A stretch of 64,000 nt of DNA, from positions 434,001 through 498,000 of the forward strand of contig NZ_BSTF01000003.1 of NCBI RefSeq assembly GCF_030269365.1, in the 5' to 3' direction. Of the stretch, positions 1,289-13,186 are shown in pieces (position 1 is the stretch's first letter; every line of letters begins with the position of its first letter). The stretch comes from Lentzea sp. NBRC 102530 (lineage in GTDB: Bacteria > Actinomycetota > Actinomycetes > Mycobacteriales > Pseudonocardiaceae). The position numbers and the translations under genes are program-made. The notes under the pieces were generated by a model, which was not told where the DNA came from, did no database searches, and saw only the letters and a program-made list of their open reading frames with translations.

Positions 1289-3466
1289 GTGATCAAGCCG
1301 GAAGACTTGACCGAAGTCGAGCGCCAGGTCGCGGGCGCCTACGCCGGCGGCACCGAGATCGACCTGACCGGACAGAGCGCCCGCGGCGAGGTGCTCACCG
1401 GTCTGCTGACCGGTATGTACCGCGTTCCGCGCAAGGGACTACCCGCTTTGCGCCTGCGCAACGCGCGGATCACCGGGAAGTTCGAACTCGAGGGCACGCG
1501 CGTCACGCGGGTCATCGACCTGACCCACTGCGCGTTCGAGGAACCGCTCGACCTCCGCATGGCCCGCCTGATCGGCCTGCGCCTGCGCGGTACCCGCGTG
1601 CCGGGTCTGCAGGGCCGCAACCTCAGGGTCTTCAGCGACCTGGTGCTCGAAGCCGGCTTCACCTGCACCGGCACCGTCGACCTCACCGACGCGGCGGTGG
1701 ACGGCACCCTCCGGCTCGCCGGCGCGGTGCTCCGTTCCAACACCCACCACGCGCTGCTCGGCGCACGCCTGCGGGTCAGCGGTTCCGTGCAGGCCATCGC
1801 GATGCGCGCGCAAGGTGAGGTGAGGCTGCGCGGCGCGAACGTCGGCGGCAGCGTGCACCTCGGGGGTGCGCGGCTGATCAACACCGGCAAGGACGCGCTC
1901 GACGCGTCCGGGCTCGTCGTCGCCGGCAACGTCTTCTGCAACGCCGAGGGCGGCCGGTTCACCGCCGACGGCCGCGTCCTCTTCGACGGCGCACGGATCG
2001 GCGGCAACGTCGAGTTCACCGGCGCCCGCCTCAACTCCACCCACCGCGTCGACAACCAGGTGCTCGTCCTGCCGCACGGATCGGCGGACGAGGCCGCGAC
2101 GCTGGTGGCCGACCGCATCCGGGTCGAGGGCAACGTCGAGCTCGACGACGGGTTCACCAGCACCGGCACGGTCCGGCTGCCCAACGCGAGCGTCGGCGGG
2201 TACCTGCGGATGTCCGGCGCGGTGATCGGGCCGCGCGAGGTCGCCGAGGAACTCGCTGGTGACGTCACCAACCGCATCCCCGTCGCACTGCACGCCGACG
2301 GCATGCAGGTGCGCGGTGACGTCGAGGCGCGCAGCGCGGTCAACGGCGCGGGCACGCGTTGCCCGGCGTTGCAGACCTACGGCCAGGTGCGGTTGTCCAA
2401 CGCGACGATCATGGGCAGCGCCAGCATGTCCGGCGTCTCGTTGCACGGGCCGGGCATCGACGTCCTGTTCGCCGACCGCCTCCAGATAGGAGGCACGCTC
2501 TTCCTGCGCGAGCTGAAGGCCAAGGGCTCGATCCGCCTGCAGAACGCGAACATCGGCTCCACGCTCGACCTGTCCGGCGCCGAGCTCACGTTGCCACGCC
2601 TGCGGCCGAACGGCACGCAGAAGCCCTCACTCGACGCCCGCGCCATCACGATCGGCAAGGACCTGTTGTGCAGCCGCGGGTTCACGGCCGTCGGCGGTGT
2701 GCGGATCAGACTCGGCGAGGTCGGCAAGATGGCCACGTTCAGCGACTCGCACCTCGGCTCGACCGCCGCCGACATCGCGTTGAACGCCTACGGCCTCACC
2801 GTGCACCAGTTCCGCCTGCACATCCCCGAGGGCCAGGAGCCCAAGGGCAAGGTCGTGCTGAGCCGCCTCAAGGCCGTGTCGGTGACCGACGGGCCGGGGC
2901 TGTGGGACGCCAGGGGCGGCGTCGCCGTGGACGACTTCGAGTTCGCCGGCATCACCGCCGACCCGGACGTGCCGGTGCAGACGCGGCTGAAGTGGCTGCT
3001 CAAGGTCCAGCCGGACTTCGCGCCCGGACCGTACGAGCAGCTCGCCGCCGTCTACCAGCAGGGTGGCGAAGAGGAACTCGCGCAGAAGGTCCAGCTGGAG
3101 AAGCAGCGCCGCCGCTACTCGGAACTCGGCAGGGCCGGTCGGGTCTGGGGCATGGTGCAGCGCTTCACCGTCGGGTACGGCTACCGGCCGTGGCTCGCGA
3201 TCTGCTGGCTCGCCGTCTTCTGGCTCGTCGGCGCGCTGTGGTTCAACTGGCACCCGATGGTCCGGCTCAACAAGGACGAGGACCCGGTCTGGAACGCCGC
3301 CCTGCTCGCGCTCGACCTGTTGATCCCGATCATCGACTTCGGTCAGGACGGGAAATGGCAGTTCACGGGTGCGTCGCAATGGGTCGCGGCGCTGCTCGTG
3401 GCCGTTGGCTGGGTGCTCGCTTCTACTGCTGCTGCGGGAGCCGCACGCGTTCTTAAACGCGTGTAA
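1289..3466 (+). CDS. Repeat-rich membrane-anchored protein, beta-solenoid type
   Basis: A 725-residue protein with a GTG start behind a strong GGGGGAGG site. Residues about 45-530 consist of degenerate repeats of the form (L)RLRxAxxxGxVxLxGAxL, with regular Leu/Ile/Val and Gly spacing (for example LRLRNARITG, VRLPNASVGG, IRLQNANIGS). These resemble the pentapeptide- or bactofilin-like beta-solenoids of actinobacterial proteins often called membrane-associated oxidoreductases. No nucleotide-binding or redox motif is visible, so an enzymatic name is unsupported. A basic helical segment (about 590-630) leads to two C-terminal hydrophobic segments (about 632-650 and 700-718) that should anchor it with the solenoid cytoplasmic. 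It is divergent from the AI-2E permease. Confidence 0.7.
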   Translation: MIKPEDLTEVERQVAGAYAGGTEIDLTGQSARGEVLTGLLTGMYRVPRKGLPALRLRNARITGKFELEGTRVTRVIDLTHCAFEEPLDLRMARLIGLRLRGTRVPGLQGRNLRVFSDLVLEAGFTCTGTVDLTDAAVDGTLRLAGAVLRSNTHHALLGARLRVSGSVQAIAMRAQGEVRLRGANVGGSVHLGGARLINTGKDALDASGLVVAGNVFCNAEGGRFTADGRVLFDGARIGGNVEFTGARLNSTHRVDNQVLVLPHGSADEAATLVADRIRVEGNVELDDGFTSTGTVRLPNASVGGYLRMSGAVIGPREVAEELAGDVTNRIPVALHADGMQVRGDVEARSAVNGAGTRCPALQTYGQVRLSNATIMGSASMSGVSLHGPGIDVLFADRLQIGGTLFLRELKAKGSIRLQNANIGSTLDLSGAELTLPRLRPNGTQKPSLDARAITIGKDLLCSRGFTAVGGVRIRLGEVGKMATFSDSHLGSTAADIALNAYGLTVHQFRLHIPEGQEPKGKVVLSRLKAVSVTDGPGLWDARGGVAVDDFEFAGITADPDVPVQTRLKWLLKVQPDFAPGPYEQLAAVYQQGGEEELAQKVQLEKQRRRYSELGRAGRVWGMVQRFTVGYGYRPWLAICWLAVFWLVGALWFNWHPMVRLNKDEDPVWNAALLALDLLIPIIDFGQDGKWQFTGASQWVAALLVAVGWVLASTAAAGAARVLKRV

Positions 3467-3674
3467 TTCCGCGCGATTTCAGGCGGGGCGTTCACACGAT
3501 GTGGTTAACCGGGCGCTCAGAGCGTGCATTCGGGGTGGATGGACTGGCAGAGTCGCCGACGTCGACTTGATCAGCTTGATCTTGATCGTCGGCGATTCCC
3601 TTGAGTGCCACCGAGTAGCGAGGTTTCCTGCGTTGTTCTCCGCTGATCTGCGAGCGAAGACGGGAGCGTCCGGC

Positions 3675-4403
3675 ATGCGCCGGTTCGCCACCCGTGCGCT
3701 GCTCGCCGTCGGTGGGGCGATCGCGGGAACGGCCGTTGCGTGGGCACTCGGCACGTCGTCGGCCCACGCGGCCGAAGGCGCTGACACGCAGCAGTTCGAC
3801 ATCGTCAGCAAGGTCGTCGCGTCCAGCGACGAGAAGCTGCCGGTCGTCGTCGTTCCGGCTGCCAAGGCAGTGCACAAGATCGACGAGACCTTGCGCGCCG
3901 AGCAGGAGAAGGCTCGCGCCGCCCTGCCGAACGTGCAGGTCCAGCAGGCGGTCGAGACGATCGCCGAGCGCATCCTGCCGCAGGTCACCAGGATCGGTCA
4001 GACGCAGGCACCCGCCGAAGAGCGGATGCTCGACGTGACGTTCCCGGAGATCCCGGCCCCTGCCACCGGAGCCGTCCAGTCGGCGGACCCGGTGGTCTCG
4101 CAGTACACCGGCCCGTCCGGTGCTTCGTGGACTGACCTGTTGGAGCACCACAACTTCGTCGTGCCCTCCGAACAGCGTCCGTCCCTGCCCAGCAACCCGT
4201 TGCCGAAGCTGCCCGTCCCGGCCCCCGCGCCGGTGCAGTGCTCCTCGTGCCACGACGGTTCTGGCTCTGCCAAGGGCAGCCTTCTCGCTGCTCTCGCTGC
4301 TCCCGGCAACGCTCACGGCATCTCGTCGACGGCTGCTCTCGCGCCGTCCACCGACGAGGTCACCGTGACGCCGGGCAAGCAGCCCGGTATCAACCCCGAC
4401 TGA
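3675..4403 (+). CDS. Secreted protein of unknown function
   Basis: A 242-residue exported protein. The ATG at 3675 follows GGGAG and gives a typical signal peptide (Arg-rich n-region, hydrophobic core, AHA-type cleavage near residue 33). The mature part has an Ala/Lys/Glu helical region (about 50-120), a Pro-rich segment (about 165-190), a short Cys pair (CSSCH near 189-193) and a C-terminus ending PGINPD. No family is recognised. Its position 200 bp before the chaplin-like repeat gene, in the same orientation, suggests a related surface role, which is inference. The CxxCH string is unlikely to bind haem because no cytochrome fold surrounds it. Confidence 0.65.
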   Translation: MRRFATRALLAVGGAIAGTAVAWALGTSSAHAAEGADTQQFDIVSKVVASSDEKLPVVVVPAAKAVHKIDETLRAEQEKARAALPNVQVQQAVETIAERILPQVTRIGQTQAPAEERMLDVTFPEIPAPATGAVQSADPVVSQYTGPSGASWTDLLEHHNFVVPSEQRPSLPSNPLPKLPVPAPAPVQCSSCHDGSGSAKGSLLAALAAPGNAHGISSTAALAPSTDEVTVTPGKQPGINPD

Positions 4404-4452
4404 TCACAGCGCGCGGTCCGCGACAGCCTTCCTCCCCACGGCTGTCCGGGAT

Positions 4453-4491
4453 TCGACCGACGCGCTTTTTTCTTGCGCTCCTTTCGGTCGA
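4453..4491 (+). promoter_or_regulatory. Hairpin in the leader/intergenic region before the chaplin-like gene
   Basis: TCGACCGA (4453-4460) pairs with TCGGTCGA (4484-4491), with a second GCGC/GCGC pairing inside around a T-rich loop. It lies between the secreted-protein stop (4403) and the chaplin-like start (4603). It could be a terminator for the upstream gene or a leader structure. A smaller CCCGTT/AACGGG hairpin lies just before the ribosome-binding site. Confidence 0.45.
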
Positions 4492-4602
4492 TCACCGCGT
4501 GCGACTCCCCCGGTGAAAGACGCGCCTTCCCCTGCGCGTTCTCGGCCCCACCTCCCATGAACCCCCGTTTCTCTGAACGGGAATTTGGAAAAAGGAGATC
4601 TA

Positions 4603-7600
4603 ATGCAGACCTGGGCAAAGCGCGGACTTCAGACCGCGTTTGTCACTGGTGGTTTGCTGATGCTCGGTACGGGCATCGCTTCTGCCCAGGAGAACGTCGA
4701 CCCCGACGCCGCCCCGCCGGCCGTCGACGTCGCCGCTTCGGTCCCGCTGAAGGCGGACCAGAACAAGCTGGCCACCCCGGTCAAGGAGATCACTCTCCCC
4801 AAGGTCGACCGCACGATCAGCACGGACCGCGTCACCAGCGCGGTGCCCACCCGCACGGCTGCGCCCGTCGCGAACCCGCTGGTCCGCCAGGCCGGTGAGC
4901 GCCTGCAGGGCACCGCGCTGCAGGGCCTCATCCGCGGCAACACGATCCAGGCGCACGTCGATGTGCCGATCAACATCTGCGGCAACGCGATCGCGGTCCT
5001 CGCGAACACCGACGCGACCGCCGACTGCTCGCAGACCACGCACCGCGACGGCACGATCGTCACGGACGGCGCGGGCCAGGCGCTGGCCGGCAACGTCGTC
5101 GCCGTCAACCACATCCTGCCGGTCCAGATCACCGGCAACGCCATCGCGGCGGGTGGCAACGCCACCACCAACACGGCCGCCGAGCAGGTCTCGACGACCG
5201 GCGGCGACATCACCACCAACGGTGACCGCGGCGCCATCTCCGGCAACGTCGTCGCCGAGCAGGGTGCGACCCCCGTCCAGATCACCGGCAACGGTGTGGG
5301 TGCGGCCGGCATCGCGCAGGCCAACTCGACCGCCGACACGTTCGCGTCCTCCGAGGGCGACGTGCTGACGAGCGGCAAGAGCAGCTCCATCTCCGGCAAC
5401 GCAGTGCCGATCCCGCTGGCCCCGCTGGCCGAGGTCAACGGCAACTCCGCCGCGGGTGCGGGCAACTCCGGCACCGACTCGGTGCAGACCGGCACCGCGA
5501 TCGCCGGTGGCAAGACCGACACCAACGGTGACCCGGCCACGCTGGCCGGCAACGTCGTGGCCCCCGCCCTCGCGGGCCCCGTCACGGTGGACGACAACGC
5601 CGCCGCGGTCGGTGGCAACGCCGCCGCTGTGAGCGACACGTCGAACTGGTCCGACGCCGGTGGCCACATCCACACCGACGGCCGCGGCTCCACCGCGTCC
5701 GGCAACATCGCGGGCGTCCCCGTCTCGCTGCCCACCTCGGTCGGCGGCAACGGCGCGTCCCTGGTCGGCAACGCGCTGACCGACCACGCGAACGAGGTCA
5801 CCTCGAACGCCGGTGGCGACGCCTACACGCTGGGCGACAAGTCGGTCCTCTCGGGCAACATCGCCGACGTTCCCCCGGCCACGGCCGTGGACGTGTGCGG
5901 CAACGGTGCGACGCTGGCCGGCCAGGCGGCGGGCACCTGCGTCAACGACGTCGACTCGGAGACGGGCGGCTACCAGGGCACCACCGGCAACGACTCGGTG
6001 ATCTCGGGCAACATCGCCCAGACCCCCGTTGCCACCCCGGCCGAGGTCTACGGCATCGCCGGCACCCTCGGTGGCCAGGCGTCGGGCTCCGCGGACGAGA
6101 CCAAGTCGGTCCGTTCCAGCGGCCAGCCGAACACCGAAGACGACAACGGCACGGTCTCCAGCAACATCGTGACCGCCCCGACGGCCGCCGCGCCGCAGGT
6201 CTTCGCGGTCACCGCGGGCCTCGTCGGCAACACCACGTCGGACACCTCGAACGACACCAAGGTCATCGCGGGCGACGACCCCAAGGCGTTCGGCAAGAAG
6301 TCCTCGGCCTCCGGCAACATCGTCCAGGTCCCGACCTCGACGCCGGCCCAGGTCTTCGCCGACGGTGCCACCCTGGTCGGCAACAACAAGACCACCGGTG
6401 ACAACGCCACCGACATGAAGGCCGGCGGCGACGCCATCACCACCGGCGAGGCGGGCTCCATCGCGGGCAACGTCGTGTCGGCTCCGGTCGCCACCGGCAC
6501 GCAGGTGCTCGGCTGGTCGGTCGGCGGCGGCAGCAACGTCGACGCCTTCTCCACCAACTCGCTGTCGTCCGTCGCCGGTGGCGACGTCAACAGCAACGGT
6601 GACAAGGGTGCCGTCTCCGGCAACCTGATCGGCGCTCAGCCGGCCGTTCTCCCCGCGGTGCCGGGCAACACGGTCGCCGCGGCCGGCATCACCAACTCCG
6701 ACGTGGTGTCCGACACCAACGTCATCTCGGGTGCCGACAGCTACTCGACGGCCGACGACGCCTCGGTGTCCGGCAACCTGATCCACGTCCCCGCCAACGC
6801 CTTCGCGGGCGTCTACGCGGACGCGGTCGCGGCTGCGGGCAACGCGACGACCGTCACCGACAAGTCGTCGTACACCCAGGCCGGCGGCGAGATGCTGACC
6901 GAGGGCTCCGGCCCGCTGACCGCCCGCGAGATGACCGTTCCGGTCGAGGCGGCGGCCAAGGTCGCGCGCATCCCCGTCGAGGTCGTCGGCCAGGCGACCA
7001 CGCTGGGCCAGAGCGACGACACGCAGCTCACCGGCGAGGACACCGACGGCACCCTGCGCGCCGCGCAGCTCAAGGGCCTCGAGCTCCCCAAGGGCGTCGA
7101 CAGCCTGCTGAAGGCCAACCAGGTTCCGACCTTCCACGGCCTCGACAGCAAGCTGCCGGTCAACCAGTTCCCGAACCCGGCTGACCTGACCGCGATGGCC
7201 GGCACGCTGCCCGTCCCCGCGCTGCCCGGTGTGGCGCAGGAGCGCACCGCTCTGCCGGTGAACGGTGGCCTCGCGAGCCTGTCCCCGAACGTCCAGGGCC
7301 TGCCCCTGGGCCAGCTGCTCGACGGTGCCAAGGACCTGGTTCCGGCCGGCGCCACCGAGCGTTCGCTGCCGTCCCTGCCCGTGACCGCCCCGGCCCTGCC
7401 GGTGCCGGTCCAGCTGCCCGCCCTGCCGACCGAGCGCTCGCTGCCGACGCTCCCGGTCGACGGCCCGGCCTCCCTCTCGGGTCTCAACCTGAACCCGACC
7501 CAGGGCCTGGCCCCGCAGGCCGACGAGCGCGCGCTGCCGCAGCTGCCGTTCGGTGCCCCGGCGCTGTCCGCGCTGGACACGGCCAACGTCTTCAAGACGG

Positions 7601-7617
7601 TGTCCGGCCTGCTGTAA
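4603..7617 (+). CDS. Secreted tandem chaplin-like repeat protein
   Basis: A 1004-residue exported protein with a strong AAAGGAG ribosome-binding site 5 nt before the ATG and a signal peptide cleaved near GIASAQ-E (about 29). From residue 110 to about 772 it holds thirteen units starting (I/L/V/A)(S/A)GN at exact 51-residue spacing (110, 161, 212 ... 722). A decayed fourteenth unit begins near 773. The core, such as SGNIVQVPxxxPxxVxGN, resembles the chaplin domain (SGNvvqvPvhvPvNvCGN). Units 1 and 7 keep two cysteines each (126/142 and 432/446), as chaplins do. A Pro-rich tail (about 850-990) repeats (Q/T/D)ER(S/A)LPxLP. No LPXTG sorting signal is present. It probably forms an amphipathic surface layer on hyphae or spores. 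Chaplin homology is by motif only. Confidence 0.75.
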   Translation: MQTWAKRGLQTAFVTGGLLMLGTGIASAQENVDPDAAPPAVDVAASVPLKADQNKLATPVKEITLPKVDRTISTDRVTSAVPTRTAAPVANPLVRQAGERLQGTALQGLIRGNTIQAHVDVPINICGNAIAVLANTDATADCSQTTHRDGTIVTDGAGQALAGNVVAVNHILPVQITGNAIAAGGNATTNTAAEQVSTTGGDITTNGDRGAISGNVVAEQGATPVQITGNGVGAAGIAQANSTADTFASSEGDVLTSGKSSSISGNAVPIPLAPLAEVNGNSAAGAGNSGTDSVQTGTAIAGGKTDTNGDPATLAGNVVAPALAGPVTVDDNAAAVGGNAAAVSDTSNWSDAGGHIHTDGRGSTASGNIAGVPVSLPTSVGGNGASLVGNALTDHANEVTSNAGGDAYTLGDKSVLSGNIADVPPATAVDVCGNGATLAGQAAGTCVNDVDSETGGYQGTTGNDSVISGNIAQTPVATPAEVYGIAGTLGGQASGSADETKSVRSSGQPNTEDDNGTVSSNIVTAPTAAAPQVFAVTAGLVGNTTSDTSNDTKVIAGDDPKAFGKKSSASGNIVQVPTSTPAQVFADGATLVGNNKTTGDNATDMKAGGDAITTGEAGSIAGNVVSAPVATGTQVLGWSVGGGSNVDAFSTNSLSSVAGGDVNSNGDKGAVSGNLIGAQPAVLPAVPGNTVAAAGITNSDVVSDTNVISGADSYSTADDASVSGNLIHVPANAFAGVYADAVAAAGNATTVTDKSSYTQAGGEMLTEGSGPLTAREMTVPVEAAAKVARIPVEVVGQATTLGQSDDTQLTGEDTDGTLRAAQLKGLELPKGVDSLLKANQVPTFHGLDSKLPVNQFPNPADLTAMAGTLPVPALPGVAQERTALPVNGGLASLSPNVQGLPLGQLLDGAKDLVPAGATERSLPSLPVTAPALPVPVQLPALPTERSLPTLPVDGPASLSGLNLNPTQGLAPQADERALPQLPFGAPALSALDTANVFKTVSGLL
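4930..6918 (+). repeat. Thirteen 153-bp coding repeats (51-residue units)
   Basis: Thirteen units of exactly 153 bp in one frame without insertions or deletions. Each encodes (S/A)GN near its start, a second Gly-Asn about 18 residues later, and GGD or a similar turn near residue 40. The units differ strongly in DNA sequence, so this is an old, protein-level periodicity and not a recent tandem duplication. Confidence 0.85.
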
Positions 7618-7657
7618 GCAACACCCGCTAGACGCAACACCCTCCTCCGGTAAGAAG

Positions 7658-7695
7658 CTGAGCCCCAGCGACACGACGGTGTCGCTGGGGCTCAG
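7658..7695. terminator. Perfect 17-bp hairpin, bidirectional terminator candidate
   Basis: CTGAGCCCCAGCGACAC (7658-7674) and its exact complement (7679-7695) enclose a GACG tetraloop. It sits between the convergent chaplin-like gene and GGDEF remnant and overlaps the stop codon of the latter. Confidence 0.8.
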
Positions 7696-8060
7696 TGCCG
7701 TTCCGGGGGAGTTCGTGCTGTCTCGATGACGTCGTGCGGCTGCGCGTCCCCGTCACTGGTCACCCAGTGCACGTGCGGACTCTCCCCCACCAGCTGCCGG
7801 GTGAGCTCGGCGATCGGCTCCCCGTCCCCGAAGTCGTGCTCCGCCAGCACCGCGAGCGCCGAGTCGCTGAACCGCGCCACCGTGAAGTCCGGCCGCAACC
7901 CGTTCCGCAGTCGCTTGGCCGCCTCGATCACGTCGTCCGGCCCGCTGATGAGGACCAACGTGACGAGCGTGCCCCGTGTCCGCGCACGAATCAGCGCCTG
8001 CTCCAGGCGGTCGAGCAGCAGCGCGTGTCCGGGCAGCCCCGTGAGCGGGTCGTGCAGCAC
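7692..8060 (-). pseudogene. GGDEF-domain remnant
   Basis: A 122-codon frame starting GTG with LHDPLTGLPG, the hallmark entry of diguanylate cyclase GGDEF domains, followed by LLLDRLEQAL. Where the GG(D/E)EF active-site loop should be the protein reads FSDSALAVL, so catalysis is not expected and no RxxD inhibitory site is visible. The domain is shorter than the usual 160 residues. A stop codon lies three codons before the GTG, while another frame just upstream encodes HEARLEPE, which resembles the linker that normally precedes this domain. This suggests a frameshift plus loss of the N-terminal sensor part. It could instead be a short degenerate regulator. Confidence 0.5.
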
Positions 8061-8123
8061 CCTCCGGTTCTAGCCGAGCCTCGTGCTGTTGACCAGCACC
8101 ACCACCACGACGGGTGAGTGCCG

Positions 8124-8972
8124 TTATGCGTTGGGGTTGGGCACGGCCTTCTCCGCCGCCCGACTCGTCTCCTCCCAGGCGGCCCACGTCTCCATCCGCT
8201 GCTTCGACAGGTAGAACGCGACGTCGTAAACCATGCTCCCGAGCAACAGCCGCAACGGCGGCTCCTCGGCGTCGACCAGCTTCAGCACCGCCTCCGCGGC
8301 CAGCCGCGGCTCGCTGTCCACGGACCCCTCGGCCCACTGCTTCTCCAGCTCAGTCCGCAGATCCTGGTAGACGGGATCGGGCGTCGTCGCCTGGCTGCTC
8401 GCGTACAGGTCGGTCCAGTACCCACCGGGCTGCACGATGGTGACCTTGACCCCGAACTGCTTCGCCTCAGCGGCCAACGCCTCGCTCATCCCTTCGAGCG
8501 CGAACTTGCTGGCGCTGTACAAGCCGGTACTGGGAAACCCGCCGAGCGCCCCGATGCTGGAAACCTGCAGGAGGTGCCCACTCCGCTGCTTCCGCAGCTG
8601 CGGCATCACGGCCTGACTGACCCACAACGCCCCGAAGAAGTTGAGCTCCATCTGAGCCCGGGCCTCGGCCTCGCTGAACTCCTCGACCATCCCGGCGTGC
8701 AACACCCCGGCGTTGTTCACCACGACATCAAGCCGCCCGAACCGTTCCACGGCCTGGTCAACGGCCTCGAACACCTTCTCCCGATCCGTCACGTCAACGG
8801 CGAGCGCCAGCACGCGCTCCGGGTGCTCCGCGACGAGGTCGTCCAGCCGCGACACATCCCGAGCCACCCCGACCACCACGTCGCCGGCACCGAGCGCGGC
8901 CTCCGTGAACGCCCGCCCCAGCCCACGGCTGGCACCAGTGACAAACCAAACACGAGCCCCAGCGACGTTCAT
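8124..8972 (-). CDS. SDR family oxidoreductase
   Basis: A 282-residue classical short-chain dehydrogenase/reductase. TGASRGLG (NAD(P)-binding) lies near residue 12, NNAG near 85, the catalytic Ser region QVSSIG near 133 and YSASK near 148. The Arg after the Gly motif favours NADPH. The ATG at 8972 is chosen for its GGGGAG ribosome-binding site at 6 nt. The gene is divergent from a TetR regulator, and one of two near-identical palindromes in the shared intergenic region lies directly in front of its start. It is therefore probably repressed by that regulator and induced by a small hydrophobic substrate. Its substrate is unknown. Confidence 0.88.
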   Translation of the reverse strand: MNVAGARVWFVTGASRGLGRAFTEAALGAGDVVVGVARDVSRLDDLVAEHPERVLALAVDVTDREKVFEAVDQAVERFGRLDVVVNNAGVLHAGMVEEFSEAEARAQMELNFFGALWVSQAVMPQLRKQRSGHLLQVSSIGALGGFPSTGLYSASKFALEGMSEALAAEAKQFGVKVTIVQPGGYWTDLYASSQATTPDPVYQDLRTELEKQWAEGSVDSEPRLAAEAVLKLVDAEEPPLRLLLGSMVYDVAFYLSKQRMETWAAWEETSRAAEKAVPNPNA

Positions 8973-9910: not shown

Positions 9911-11962
9911 TCAGGTCTGGGCCAGGTCCGTGAACCGCGAGTAGTGCAGCTGGTGCGCCACGGTGATGGTCGCCGTAGGCCCAGCACGGTGCTTGGCGAT
10001 GATCAGGTCAGCCTCACCGGCCCGGGGATCGTCCCGCTCCCAAGCGTCAGGCCGGTTGACCAGGATGACCATGTCGGCGTCCTGCTCCAGCGACCCGGAC
10101 TCACGAAGGTCGGACAGCATCGGCCGCTTGTCGGTCCGCTGTTCCGGACCACGGTTCAGCTGCGAGATCGCGATCACCGGAACGTGGAGTTCCTTGGCGA
10201 TCAGCTTCAGGTTTCGGGAGAACTCCGAGACTTCCTGCTGGCGGGACTCGGTCTTCTTGCCGGACGACATCAGCTGGAGGTAGTCGACGACGACGAGCTT
10301 GAGGTCGTGGCGCTGCTTCAACCGACGGGCCTTGGCCCGGATCTCCATCATGGTGAGGTTGGGGCTGTCGTCGACGAACAGGGGCGCTTCGCTGATCTCG
10401 CTCATGCGGCGGGCCAGGCGGGTCCAGTCGTCGTCGCTCATGGTGCCGCCTCGCATGTCGCTGAGGCGGATGCGGGCCTCGGCGGAGAGCATGCGCATGA
10501 CGATTTCGGTGCGGCTCATTTCCAGGCTGAAGATGGCGCTGGTCATGCCGTGCTTCACCGAGCACGACCTGGCGAAGTCCAGGCCGAGCGTCGAGTTGTG
10601 GGTCGGGATCATGGTCTCGCCGGCCAGGTACAGGTGGTCGTGGTTGTCGACCTCCACGCAGCGGACCGGGACCGAGGCGACCGGGCGGACGGCGAGGATC
10701 TCCACCTGGTCGTGCCGGCCGAGGCTCGCGGTCAGCTCGTCCACGTCGCGGCGCAGGCGGGCGAAACGCCCGTCGATCTGCAGGGCGGCGAGGAGTTCGG
10801 CCCGCTGCTTGTGCGACGCGCGCAGGTACGCGGCCGGGATGTGCGGGTCGTCGGCCACGTCGAGGTCCTTCGCGACGCGGAGCTCCTCGTCGGTCAGTTC
10901 CAGGTCGCCGAGGCCCGAGAGGAACAGGCCGAGCGCGCGCGGCGACAGCGGCAGCGCGGCAGCAGGCAGTTCCCAGGCCGAGGACAGGCGCACGTACTGG
11001 CGGCAGAGGCCGACGCGATCGAAGAGCTGTGCGGTGGTGCGGATGGCCCAGAAGCCACCGGTCTCGGAGCAGGACTCGGTCAGCCACTGGTGTTCGGCGT
11101 CGGCGGTGATGACGGTGCCGTCGGAGAACTCGACCTCGAAACACGGGCGCCCAGTCATCACCTCGGTCGCGGCGACGACGCGGGTCGGGCGGCCGTCGGC
11201 GCCGATCAGGTACGAGCCGACCGCGACGGAACCCATCGTCGTCCAGCCGGACGGGGTGGGCAGCGGGGTGTCGAGAGCCAGCGCCTTGCCGACACCGGGG
11301 CGGGCGGCGACGATGATCATCTGGCCGCCGTGCAGGCCGTTGGTGAGGGCGTCGAGGTCCGCGAAGCCCGTCGGGATGCCCTGGGAGATGCCGCCCCGGG
11401 ACGCGATGGCGTCGATCTCGTCCATCGTCGGCTGGAGCAGGTCCTCGAGGGCGACGTAGTCCTCGGTGGTGCGGCGGTCGGTGACCTCGTAGATCGCGGC
11501 CTGGGCCCGGTCGACCACCTCGTCGACGTCCGCGCCCTCCGCTCCGTTGTAGCCGAGCTGCACGATGCGGGTGCCGGCCTCGACGAGGCGACGCAGAACC
11601 GCCTTCTCGGCGACGATCTCGGCGTAGTAACCCGCGTTCGCCGCCGTGGGGACCGTCGCGATCAACGTGTGCAGGTACGGTGCGCCGCCGACGCGCAGCA
11701 GTTCGCCGCGGCGTTCGAGCTCGGCGGAGATGGTGATCGGGTCGGCCGGTTCGCCCCGGCCGTAGAGGTCGAGGATGCAGTCGTAGATCGCCTGGTGGGC
11801 AGGGCGGTAGAAGTCGTTCGGGGCGAGGGCCTCGATGACGTCCGCGATGGCGTCCTTCGACAGCAACATGCCGCCCAGCACGGACTGCTCCGCGGCCAGG
11901 TCCTGAGGCGGCTGGCGCTCGAAAGCGGGTTCCGCCATGCCCCGGTCGTCCACGAGCGCCAC
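9911..11962 (-). CDS. dnaB: Replicative DNA helicase DnaB with in-frame intein
   Basis: The hexameric replication-fork helicase. The 683-residue precursor contains a 230-residue intein splitting the Walker A motif after RPGVGK. The ligated product is 453 residues, normal for DnaB. The N-terminal domain (PPQDLAAEQSVLGGMLL onward) is at residues about 18-150 and the RecA-like domain after it. The C-extein begins Ser-Thr (completing GKST) and has Walker B-like VVVDYLQLM and the ISQLNRG motif. The start chosen is GTG 11962 (ALVDDRG...) behind AGGGG, with ATG 11938 as the alternative. It lies downstream of rplI in the same direction but is separated by about 510 bp rich in DnaA boxes, so it probably has its own promoter. 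Confidence 0.95.
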   Translation of the reverse strand: MALVDDRGMAEPAFERQPPQDLAAEQSVLGGMLLSKDAIADVIEALAPNDFYRPAHQAIYDCILDLYGRGEPADPITISAELERRGELLRVGGAPYLHTLIATVPTAANAGYYAEIVAEKAVLRRLVEAGTRIVQLGYNGAEGADVDEVVDRAQAAIYEVTDRRTTEDYVALEDLLQPTMDEIDAIASRGGISQGIPTGFADLDALTNGLHGGQMIIVAARPGVGKALALDTPLPTPSGWTTMGSVAVGSYLIGADGRPTRVVAATEVMTGRPCFEVEFSDGTVITADAEHQWLTESCSETGGFWAIRTTAQLFDRVGLCRQYVRLSSAWELPAAALPLSPRALGLFLSGLGDLELTDEELRVAKDLDVADDPHIPAAYLRASHKQRAELLAALQIDGRFARLRRDVDELTASLGRHDQVEILAVRPVASVPVRCVEVDNHDHLYLAGETMIPTHNSTLGLDFARSCSVKHGMTSAIFSLEMSRTEIVMRMLSAEARIRLSDMRGGTMSDDDWTRLARRMSEISEAPLFVDDSPNLTMMEIRAKARRLKQRHDLKLVVVDYLQLMSSGKKTESRQQEVSEFSRNLKLIAKELHVPVIAISQLNRGPEQRTDKRPMLSDLRESGSLEQDADMVILVNRPDAWERDDPRAGEADLIIAKHRAGPTATITVAHQLHYSRFTDLAQT
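10595..11284 (-). other. Class 3 intein inserted in the DnaB P-loop
   Basis: 230 codons between Lys of RPGVGK and Ser of the C-extein. The first residue is Ala, not Cys/Ser, which excludes class 1 splicing chemistry. The WCT set that defines class 3 inteins is present: Trp67 in block B (AEHQW), Cys209 in block F (VRCVEVDN) and Thr228 in block G (IPTHN), with terminal His-Asn and Ser at +1. Residues about 115-127 (ALGLFLSGLGD) and 150-172 (IPAAYLRAS, LLAALQIDG) look like remains of a LAGLIDADG endonuclease that has lost its acidic residues and much of its length. Mycobacterial DnaB carries related inteins at this position. Confidence 0.93.
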
Positions 11963-12125
11963 TGCTGAATCACCCCTGCGAAGAGTCGAGAAGCCGGTGC
12001 CTGAGTCCCCTAGTTGTACCTCGCGGCACCGACAATGTCGGGCGGCCACGCTGCGCGATGGGGCGCCCTGGTAGCGACGCTAGAGGGACCCGTCCGGAGC
12101 AAGCAAACCAGCGTGTGGATCGTCC

Positions 12126-12350
12126 TGTGGACAACTGGGGGACAACCTGTGGATGGTTGCTCACAGGGGTGAGGGCGCTGGGGACAACCTGTTGACAACC
12201 AGTGGAGTGACAGAAATAACCCCAGCTCAAAGGCTGTGCACAAGTTGTGGAAAAAGTTGTGTGGCACGCCCTCGGCGTGTCGCGAAAAACACTCTCGTCG
12301 GCGTGTCGCGGCGTCGGTAAACCTTCGGTTTATCCACAGGACGTGGACAA
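12126..12350. promoter_or_regulatory. DnaA-box cluster upstream of dnaB
   Basis: The gap between dnaB and rplI (11963-12473) has no gene but several 9-mers matching TTGTCCACA/TTATCCACA. Exact matches are TGTGGACAA (12126-12134) and TTATCCACA (12330-12338). Near matches are at 12148 (TGTGGATGG), 12190 (TGTTGACAA), 12235 (TGTGCACAA), 12246 (TGTGGAAAA) and 12342 (CGTGGACAA). Most lie on the same strand as each other. This suggests DnaA control of dnaB or a DnaA titration site. The rest of the gap holds the rplI terminator and nothing else recognised. Confidence 0.6.
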
Positions 12351-12374
12351 GCGCGCACTGGTCCGAACGAGCGA

Positions 12375-12414
12375 AAGCGCCACCCACCCGGAGCATTCCG
12401 GGTAGGCGGCGCTT
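12375..12414 (-). terminator. Hairpin terminator of the rpsF-rplI operon
   Basis: AAGCGCCACCCACCCGGA (12375-12392) pairs with TCCGGGTAGGCGGCGCTT (12397-12414) with two mismatches and a GCAT loop, about 60 bp after the rplI stop. Confidence 0.65.
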
Positions 12415-12473
12415 CAGCAAACTCAACCGTGGGCGATCCCCACCATCGGGTGGTGATCATGGCCCAAAGTCAA

Positions 12474-12929
12474 TTACTCGCCGGCCGTGACGTTCAGCGG
12501 CAGGGCGACGGTGACCTCGGGGTGGAGGCGAACCGTCACCGAGTGCTTGCCCGTGGTCTTGATGTGACCCGGCAGCTCGATGGCGCGCTTGTCCAGCACC
12601 GGACCACCGGCGGACTTGACGGCAGCCGCCACGTCCGCGTTGGTGACCGAGCCGAACAGCTTCTTGGAGCCCGAGGCGGCCTTCGCGGTCAGGGTGACGC
12701 CACCCAGACCCTCGAGCGCGGCCTTGATCTCCTTGGCGTGGTCCAGGTCGCGCACGCGGCGGGTGTCCTGCGCGCGGGTGATGACCTGGATCTGCTTCTG
12801 CGCACCGCGGGTCGCGACGATCGCGAGACCGCGCGGGAGCAGGTAGTTGCGGCCGTAGCCGTCCTTGACCTCGACGATGTCGCCGGGAGCGCCAAGGCCG
12901 GAAACGTCAGCGGTGAGGATGAGCTTCAT
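12474..12929 (-). CDS. rplI: 50S ribosomal protein bL9
   Basis: 151 residues, full length for bL9. The N-terminal domain starts [13 protein letters not shown], with the conserved [21 protein letters not shown] region that binds 23S rRNA. A long connecting helix (about 40-75) and the C-terminal domain (about 80-148, ending ALPLNV) follow. It is the last gene of rpsF-ssb-rpsR-rplI, 17 bp after rpsR, with a hairpin terminator downstream. Confidence 0.97.
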
Positions 12930-12946
12930 CGCGAATGTCCCCTTTC

Positions 12947-13186
12947 TTAGCGAGCGGTCGAGGTGTAGGGCAGCAGGGCCATCTCACGGGCGTTCTTCAC
13001 GGCAACAGCGACGTCGCGCTGGTGCTGCGAGCAGTTGCCCGTGACGCGGCGGGCACGGATCTTGCCGCGGTCCGAGATGAACTTGCGGAGCAGCGTCGTG
13101 TCCTTGTAGTCGATCAGGGACGCGCTCTTGTCCTTGCAGAAGGCGCAGACCTTCTTCTTGGGCTTGCGCACAGGCGGCTTGGCCAT
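12947..13186 (-). CDS. rpsR: 30S ribosomal protein bS18 (zinc-binding, C+ form)
   Basis: 79 residues. Cys14 and Cys17 (KKVCAFC) with Cys52 and His55 (GNCSQH) form the zinc site of the C+ variant, so this is the zinc-replete paralogue and not the zinc-free form some actinobacteria induce on zinc starvation. It pairs with bS6 on the 30S platform. It lies between ssb and rplI in the conserved operon. Confidence 0.97.

Follow-up and report, generated by a model that had tools for sequence, protein, structure and literature searches.

A chaplin-like protein of Lentzea with thirteen units at a 51-residue period, suggested by covariation to stack in register

The window, a 64,000-nucleotide stretch of DNA from Lentzea sp. 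NBRC 102530, encodes a 1004-aa protein built around a tandem array of thirteen chaplin-like units. What is new here is that neighbouring units covary in register over 106 homologues. This covariation suggests that adjacent units stack in register as 51-residue coils. Our preferred reading, to which we assign a probability of about 0.5, is that the protein is a chaplin relative in one chain, whose stacked coils would form an amphipathic coat on the cell surface. Within this reading, the stack appears well supported by the covariation, and a role as a hydrophobic coat would be plausible.

The gene lies on the plus strand at 4603..7617, from an ATG at 4603 to a stop codon ending at 7617; its open frame yields a PF03777 match and has orthologues. 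A ribosome-binding site, AAGGAG (4592..4597), is well conserved in an upstream alignment of 20 loci. The predicted signal-peptide-like N-terminus, MQTWAKRG...GIASA (residues 1-28; 4603..4686), is strongly conserved, and by the look of it the protein would be exported. A linker extends up to residue 106 and is followed by the array. The C-terminal part (7063..7617) is a Pro/Leu-rich tail that varies in length among species and contains repeated ERSLPxLPV-like segments. A preliminary description of this DNA had noticed both this repeated tail and the lack of LPXTG, the sortase signal of the long chaplins ChpA-C; LPXTG is indeed absent from the entire protein. Searches with the protein gave no relative among phages or in PHROG, and nothing in NCBIfam reached its cut-off. 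The minus strand of the same DNA contains an open frame of 1024 aa (4600-7674). This frame is probably a by-product of GC-rich codons, since it is the plus frame that has the ribosome-binding site, the signal-like N-terminus, and the family homology.

The array (4921..6909; residues 107-769), delimited by self-identity and by a unit profile, consists of thirteen ungapped units with the exact 51-residue period that had been described, starting at residues 107, 158, and so on to 719. The self-identity of residues 101-780 is 31.6% at a lag of 51, 28.4% at 102, and 31.9% at 153, while the best lag from 1 to 299 that is not a multiple of 51 yields 16.1%. Asn occupies unit position 7 in 13 of 13 units, and the preceding Gly at position 6 is found in 12 of 13, the exception being unit 9 with SSN in place of the GN anchor. 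The (S/A)GN anchors of the preliminary description do recur every 51 residues; their numbers were one residue low, and the anchor of unit 1 is RGN, as that of unit 9 is SSN. The decay noted after unit 13 corresponds to a decayed 14th unit (6910..7062), matched by the unit profile at a spacing of 50, which possibly caps the stack C-terminally. The protein has four Cys in total, residues 126, 142, 432, and 446, and the earlier statement that they form pairs in two units only is correct. One pair is in unit 1 (4921..5073; unit positions 20 and 36), the unit nearest to chaplins, and the other is in unit 7 (5839..5991; unit positions 20 and 34).

In 18 Lentzea-type proteins, orthologous units are 77% identical, whereas units inside one protein are 29% identical. 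Moreover, when the units of 17 Lentzea-type relatives were compared with those of the window, the best-matching unit had the same index in 221 of 221 cases. The array is therefore an old expansion that has been frozen, and these two results rule out a recent tandem expansion or concerted evolution.

Judging from PF03777, shuffle-tested profile scores, and profile-profile comparison, the array shares ancestry with the chaplin core, the similarity being diluted by divergence; the chaplin relationship proposed earlier is thereby upheld. The whole protein matches PF03777 with 40.2 bits in eight stretches, the curated cut-off being 21 bits. Of eight units scanned singly, unit 1 passes this cut-off (39.7 bits), units 7, 6, 10, 2, and 3 fall below it at 20.3-12.6 bits, and units 4 and 12 have no PF03777 match. 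We also constructed a chaplin profile from 21 canonical domains at ten loci (L110-L119) in genomes rich in canonical chaplins. With this profile, units 1, 3, 6, 7, 8, and 10 score above all 4200 shuffles, units 2, 4, 11, 12, and 13 are exceeded by 6-22 of the 4200, and units 5, 9, and the decayed 14th cannot be told apart from the shuffles. In hhalign, the units match the chaplin profile at 97.0%, and at 95.7% over 31 columns when the Cys-bearing units are left out. The first two GN of a unit are at the chaplin spacing, and the odd/even hydrophobic contrast is as in the 21 chaplin domains; the third GN is closer (7 residues on) than in chaplins. Among the 13 units, the chaplin Cys pair is kept in units 1 and 7 alone; ChpE likewise has no Cys pair (PMC3079736). 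Where a chaplin is characterized by one or two domains of ∼40 residues, this protein has 13 units of 51 residues.

Arrays of a similar kind turn up repeatedly in Pseudonocardiaceae. A search of 60 genomes yielded matches in all 23 Lentzea and in 38 genomes overall; the nearest named relatives are 21 Lentzea records with 62-89% identity, L. waywayandensis being the first. A family profile matched 95 of 120 Pseudonocardiaceae genomes, a count that includes matches by the N-terminus alone. PF03777 matched 35 of 100 Pseudonocardiaceae genomes and, class-wide, 28 of 148 genomes. Among the 53 PF03777 places listed for the 100 genomes, 47 are in open frames of at least 938 aa and six in shorter ones, one of these six being a clear short chaplin (76 bits). 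In further genomes, the arrays have 13-19 unit-profile matches.

The architecture was compared in 21 intact Lentzea-type loci (L032-L051 and L054), one of which, L051, is labelled Nocardia sp. NRRL S-836; the locus of L. indica (L052), broken over frames, was excluded from these counts. Over the first 13 units, 17 loci keep a spacing of exactly 51 throughout, three have a single spacing of 52, and one has a single spacing of 61. Cys are in units 1 and 7 in 20 loci and in units 1, 7, and 8 in one. The same units 1 and 7 carry Cys in Umezawaea and 11 Saccharothrix loci, where the spacing after unit 4 is 60-61 in 12 of 12. In Actinokineospora (eight named loci) Cys are in units 5 and 7, and the four Prauserella loci have no Cys units. 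The three Kutzneria loci have 18 units, and spacings of 56-57 occur there. Outside the genus spacings are mostly 51-52, with ∼60-63 after unit 4 or 5 being common. Hence the 51-residue period is conserved in close homologues but not uniformly in other genera.

Directly upstream of the array gene is a conserved partner gene (3675..4403, plus strand) encoding a 242-aa protein with an N-terminal signal- or anchor-like stretch RRxxxRALLxxGG...A, a Pro-rich middle, a CSSC motif, and the C-terminal end PGKQPGINPD. It matched no Pfam, NCBIfam, or PHROG family over threshold, part of these scans having been made on a longer frame that contains it. An alignment of its homologues (53 rows) has the RRxxxRAL..GG..A block and a nearly invariant C-terminal Q-P-G-x-(T/N)-P-D. 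The two genes are separated by 199 bp (4404..4602), and this spacing is near 190-200 bp in many relatives. A known RNA element in the spacer was considered and rejected, as an Rfam scan of 3000-8500 gave one sub-threshold match, which lies inside the gene; a promoter and terminator scan gave nothing useful.

A QPGxTPD-type frame is present upstream of the array in 61 of 78 loci, with gaps of 124-225 bp in 60 of the 61 and 414 bp in one. The Pseudonocardiaceae set comprises 65 loci (L032-L096) assigned by name or protein closeness, including two with odd labels, L051 (Nocardia) and L091 (Melainabacteria). As L036 has no upstream DNA, 64 loci could be considered, and 61 of them have the partner. 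In two Kutzneria loci (L074 and L078) the upstream frame ends in QAGITPD, at 200 and 198 bp, respectively, and L087 is the only one of the 64 to lack the partner end. In the window's own genome the QPGxTPD pattern has one match, at the partner. Of the stretches around genes that match by the N-terminus only, 6 of 6 contain the motif as well. For four of these the unit-free protein was read out: the end of the motif is 159-225 bp upstream of it in three, and ∼1.9 kb upstream in L127. The partner is therefore not tied to chaplin-like units, its motif also being present beside a protein that shares the N-terminus but has no units.

These surroundings leave some room for a stacked surface protein with another job, such as a protein that belongs to the wall or matrix of substrate hyphae, serves in adhesion, or forms a spacer layer. 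In many loci the pair of partner and array genes is flanked by dnaB and a gene for a pentapeptide-type protein; none of the adjoining genes is a known developmental one; other members of the family have proteins that share the N-terminus but lack units; and some chaplins serve in attachment too (PMC4255298). Still, the hydrophobic strand face resembles that of chaplins, and the array protein is the sole PF03777 match in its genome (at E 0.001), and we regard such a different function as less likely than the aerial coat, though it is the strongest competitor.

Whether or not the function is that of a coat, the stack was assessed by mean-field direct-coupling analysis of pooled adjacent units from 106 index-aligned proteins (1067 rows, effective number 606). 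These are the proteins that could be index-aligned out of 137 unique multi-unit ones, uniqueness being by exact containment, with near-identical copies retained and down-weighted by sequence weights. The analysis did not include the Streptosporangiales-type loci (L097-L109), nor units that show an indel relative to the profile. Another alignment, A2, comprised 55 proteins, that of the window and those of 54 of 78 homologous loci. The mean coupling between position i of one unit and position i of the next had z of 2.92, compared to 0.28 ± 0.06 (eight swaps) when partner units were swapped among species at the same index. The excess was 2.65, 1.31, and 0.80 at unit lags 1, 2, and 3, and the raw coupling was 0.43-0.54 at lag 4 and 0.30-0.41 at lag 6. 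The excess was 2.49 without Cys-bearing unit pairs. The in-register coupling was 2.68-3.09 over four weight and pseudocount settings, 2.85 without proteins at least 60% identical to that of the window (81 left), and 2.89 in 76 proteins below 85% identity. The strongest like-over-like position was 26, followed by 7, 22, 24, 20, and 29; positions 7, 22, and 29 are those of the GN Asn.

Co-change in 41 disjoint sister pairs agreed with the coupling. In register, the observed/expected ratio was 1.17 (95% interval 1.10-1.26) at lag 1, 1.11 at lag 2, and 1.06 at lag 3; at lags 4-8 it was 1.00-1.07, and the intervals there include 1. The register signal is somewhat blurred, as seen from raised off-register coupling at offset 2 (0.84 at -2 and 0.47 at +2, compared to ∼0.2 at offset 1) and from smaller rises of co-change, 1.06-1.10, at lag 1 and offsets 1-2.

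The in-register coupling of neighbours, which decays with lag, argues against beads on a string, that is, thirteen independent chaplin-like hairpins that serve avidity or amyloid seeding and do not stack within the chain. The absence of spacers between units and the array without indels in 17 of 21 intact Lentzea-type loci also speak against such beads. Given that canonical short chaplins are single domains assembling between chains (PMC3079736) and that units of one protein share only 29% identity, independent hairpins have some appeal, yet we consider them improbable. Even less probable is that the coupling has no structural meaning and merely reflects common ancestry, phylogeny, or local gene conversion among the repeats. 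Repeats of common descent do covary at homologous positions, and codon sharing is slightly higher in real than in swapped species pairs. Nevertheless, the same-index swap removes nearly all the coupling, units match by index throughout, and the sister pairs agree. Gene conversion would raise the synonymous likeness of neighbours, and it is disfavoured by a same-codon excess that does not depend on lag (0.021, 0.020, 0.019, and 0.019 at lags 1, 2, 3, and 5).

For the stacked coil, couplings inside units indicate a possible geometry. They run along a ladder of i+j = 54 and 56, mostly at even positions: in Cys-free units, after a column-permutation null, mean z is 1.52 (54) and 1.13 (56) for even i, and 0.31 and 0.34 for odd i. 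The leading pairs are 23-30, 8-46, 10-46, 20-34, 20-36, 6-48, and 18-38; the pairs 3-29, 44-50, and 6-36 are strong as well and lie off the ladder. Co-change in sister pairs does not single it out (1.10 at sum 54 vs. 1.00-1.09 at nine other sums), so that the intra-coil geometry is drawn solely from the coupling analysis. Like positions over like, combined with the antiparallel intra-coil ladder, are what would be expected of a two-sheet stacked coil. Each unit would form one coil of a two-strand stack, with residue i above residue i of the next coil, and strand A (∼6-26) would lie opposite strand B (∼29-48), opposing positions i and 54-i or 56-i. With the usual strand spacing, 13 coils would make a flattened beta-solenoid ∼6 nm long, and the continuous solenoid of the preliminary description gains support from the in-register covariation. 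We propose that positions 23-36 form the turn between A and B: they are followed by 170 of 175 single-residue insertions in the listed classes, counted as sequences and not as events, with insertions at unit borders being invisible.

The Cys pairs, at 20/36 in unit 1 and 20/34 in unit 7, are on the same ladder, which argues for a bridge within the coil. A staple inside each coil is more likely than a bond from one unit to the other, and the cross-link between units 1 and 7 suggested earlier was rejected on these positions.

In strand A, 74% of residues at odd positions are V/I/L/M/F/A and 1% are D/E; this alternation was matched in 0 of 5000 permutations, and the same odd-hydrophobic alternation is seen in the 21 canonical chaplin domains. 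In strand B, D/E comprise 27% at odd positions and 1% at even ones. Based on position parity, the coupled even positions of strand A would point toward strand B and its hydrophobic odd positions outward, while the acidic odd positions of strand B would point outward and form a second, acidic outer face. This suggests a two-faced rod, hydrophobic along strand A and acidic along strand B.

As a coat, the exported protein would remain attached to the hyphal surface by non-covalent contacts, for which the co-encoded QPGxTPD protein may be a partner or tether, and could lower surface tension or render hyphae water-repellent. One pre-stacked chain might then do what Streptomyces does by assembling many short chaplins. 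A broader proposal, which we offer tentatively and consider about a one-in-three matter, less probable than the coat itself, is that much of Pseudonocardiaceae has replaced many short self-assembling chaplins by one pre-assembled amphipathic beta-solenoid chain with a genetically fixed number of coils, a few of them disulphide-stapled, and a dedicated QPGxTPD partner.

The Lentzea array protein is a candidate component in the coating and raising of aerial hyphae in Pseudonocardiaceae. A 2013 survey of ∼100 genomes included four genera of this group, and a portion of its text names none of them among chaplin-bearing taxa (PMC4255298). In the open-access literature on chaplins together with Pseudonocardiaceae, Lentzea, Pseudonocardia, Saccharothrix, or beta-solenoid, we found nothing on this protein family. 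The covariation of units provides a testable model of a chaplin coil, including the pairing of strands, the outward side, and the place of the disulphide; no relative was found by sequence in PDB. A chain whose number of stacked coils is fixed would also provide a soluble, ready-made model of a functional amyloid; if the broader proposal is true, it would be a natural length-controlled, covalently joined version of one.

Among known systems, the short chaplins ChpD-H of Streptomyces share with the Lentzea unit the core (S/A)GN-x12-(C/T)GN-x5-G, an alternating strand with hydrophobic residues at odd positions, and a Cys just before the second GN, followed by another one 14-18 residues later. 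They differ in having one ∼40-residue domain per chain (PMC3079736), vs. 13 coils of 51 residues here; the Lentzea unit has an extra polar, acidic second strand, and Cys are kept in 2 of 13 units. The long chaplins ChpA-C of Streptomyces also carry more than one domain in one secreted chain, but these are two domains with a sortase signal (PMC5618241), as opposed to 13 units and no LPXTG. The general statement that chaplins have one or two domains thus fits Streptomyces and does not extend to Nonomuraea, Planotetraspora, and relatives (L097-L109). The latter also have tandem chaplin-like units and, in most cases, a WAK-type N-terminus; their proteins contain 7-8 units, in general 52-60 residues apart. 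In 12 of the 13 proteins the first unit is the only one that lacks Cys, and in the remaining one every unit has it. None of the 13 loci showed a QPGxTPD end in the 600 bp upstream. Finally, some beta-solenoid proteins carry Asn ladders, in which like residues are stacked in register, as the covariation suggests for the array; no sequence relation was found in PDB chains.

The 242-aa protein encoded upstream of the chaplin-like array (window 3675-4403, forward strand) belongs to an uncharacterised family with a nearly invariant QPGx(T/N)PD C-terminus, other members of which are encoded by upstream ORFs at 61 of the 78 homologous loci. At nearly all Pseudonocardiaceae loci examined, this family is found upstream of a WAKRG-type protein, that is, one that has the signal-peptide-like N-terminal stretch of the window protein. 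Members of the family also occur near WAKRG-type proteins that lack chaplin-like units.

Four loci (L124, L125, L127, and L128) encode proteins of 369-484 aa that have only the N-terminus, of the M-x-x-WAKRG...SA type, in common with the window protein; no chaplin-like units were seen in them. The N-terminal sequence is conserved in these proteins despite the differing remainder.

Some genomes carry second copies of the multi-unit gene, either in tandem (L138, L165) or at a distance (L089, L090), and at L089 and L090 the QPGx(T/N)PD motif is found upstream of the multi-unit copies as well. In Lentzea indica, the copy is broken across frames (L052, positions 10001-13019); either a mistake in the assembly or a genuine lesion could account for this.

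Antisense to the multi-unit gene runs a 1024-aa open frame (window 4600-7674, reverse strand); it probably arises just from the high GC content of third codon positions. Beside the array, a 122-aa frame (7692-8060, reverse strand) has a partial match to the GGDEF domain, covering just positions 2-38 of 161; related sequence adjoins the array in many relatives. Farther along, on the reverse strand, a DnaB helicase is encoded (9911-12049), its C-terminal domain interrupted by an insert of approximately 230 residues. Judged by eye, the insert looks like an intein, but no intein family of Pfam matched it at the cut-off applied.
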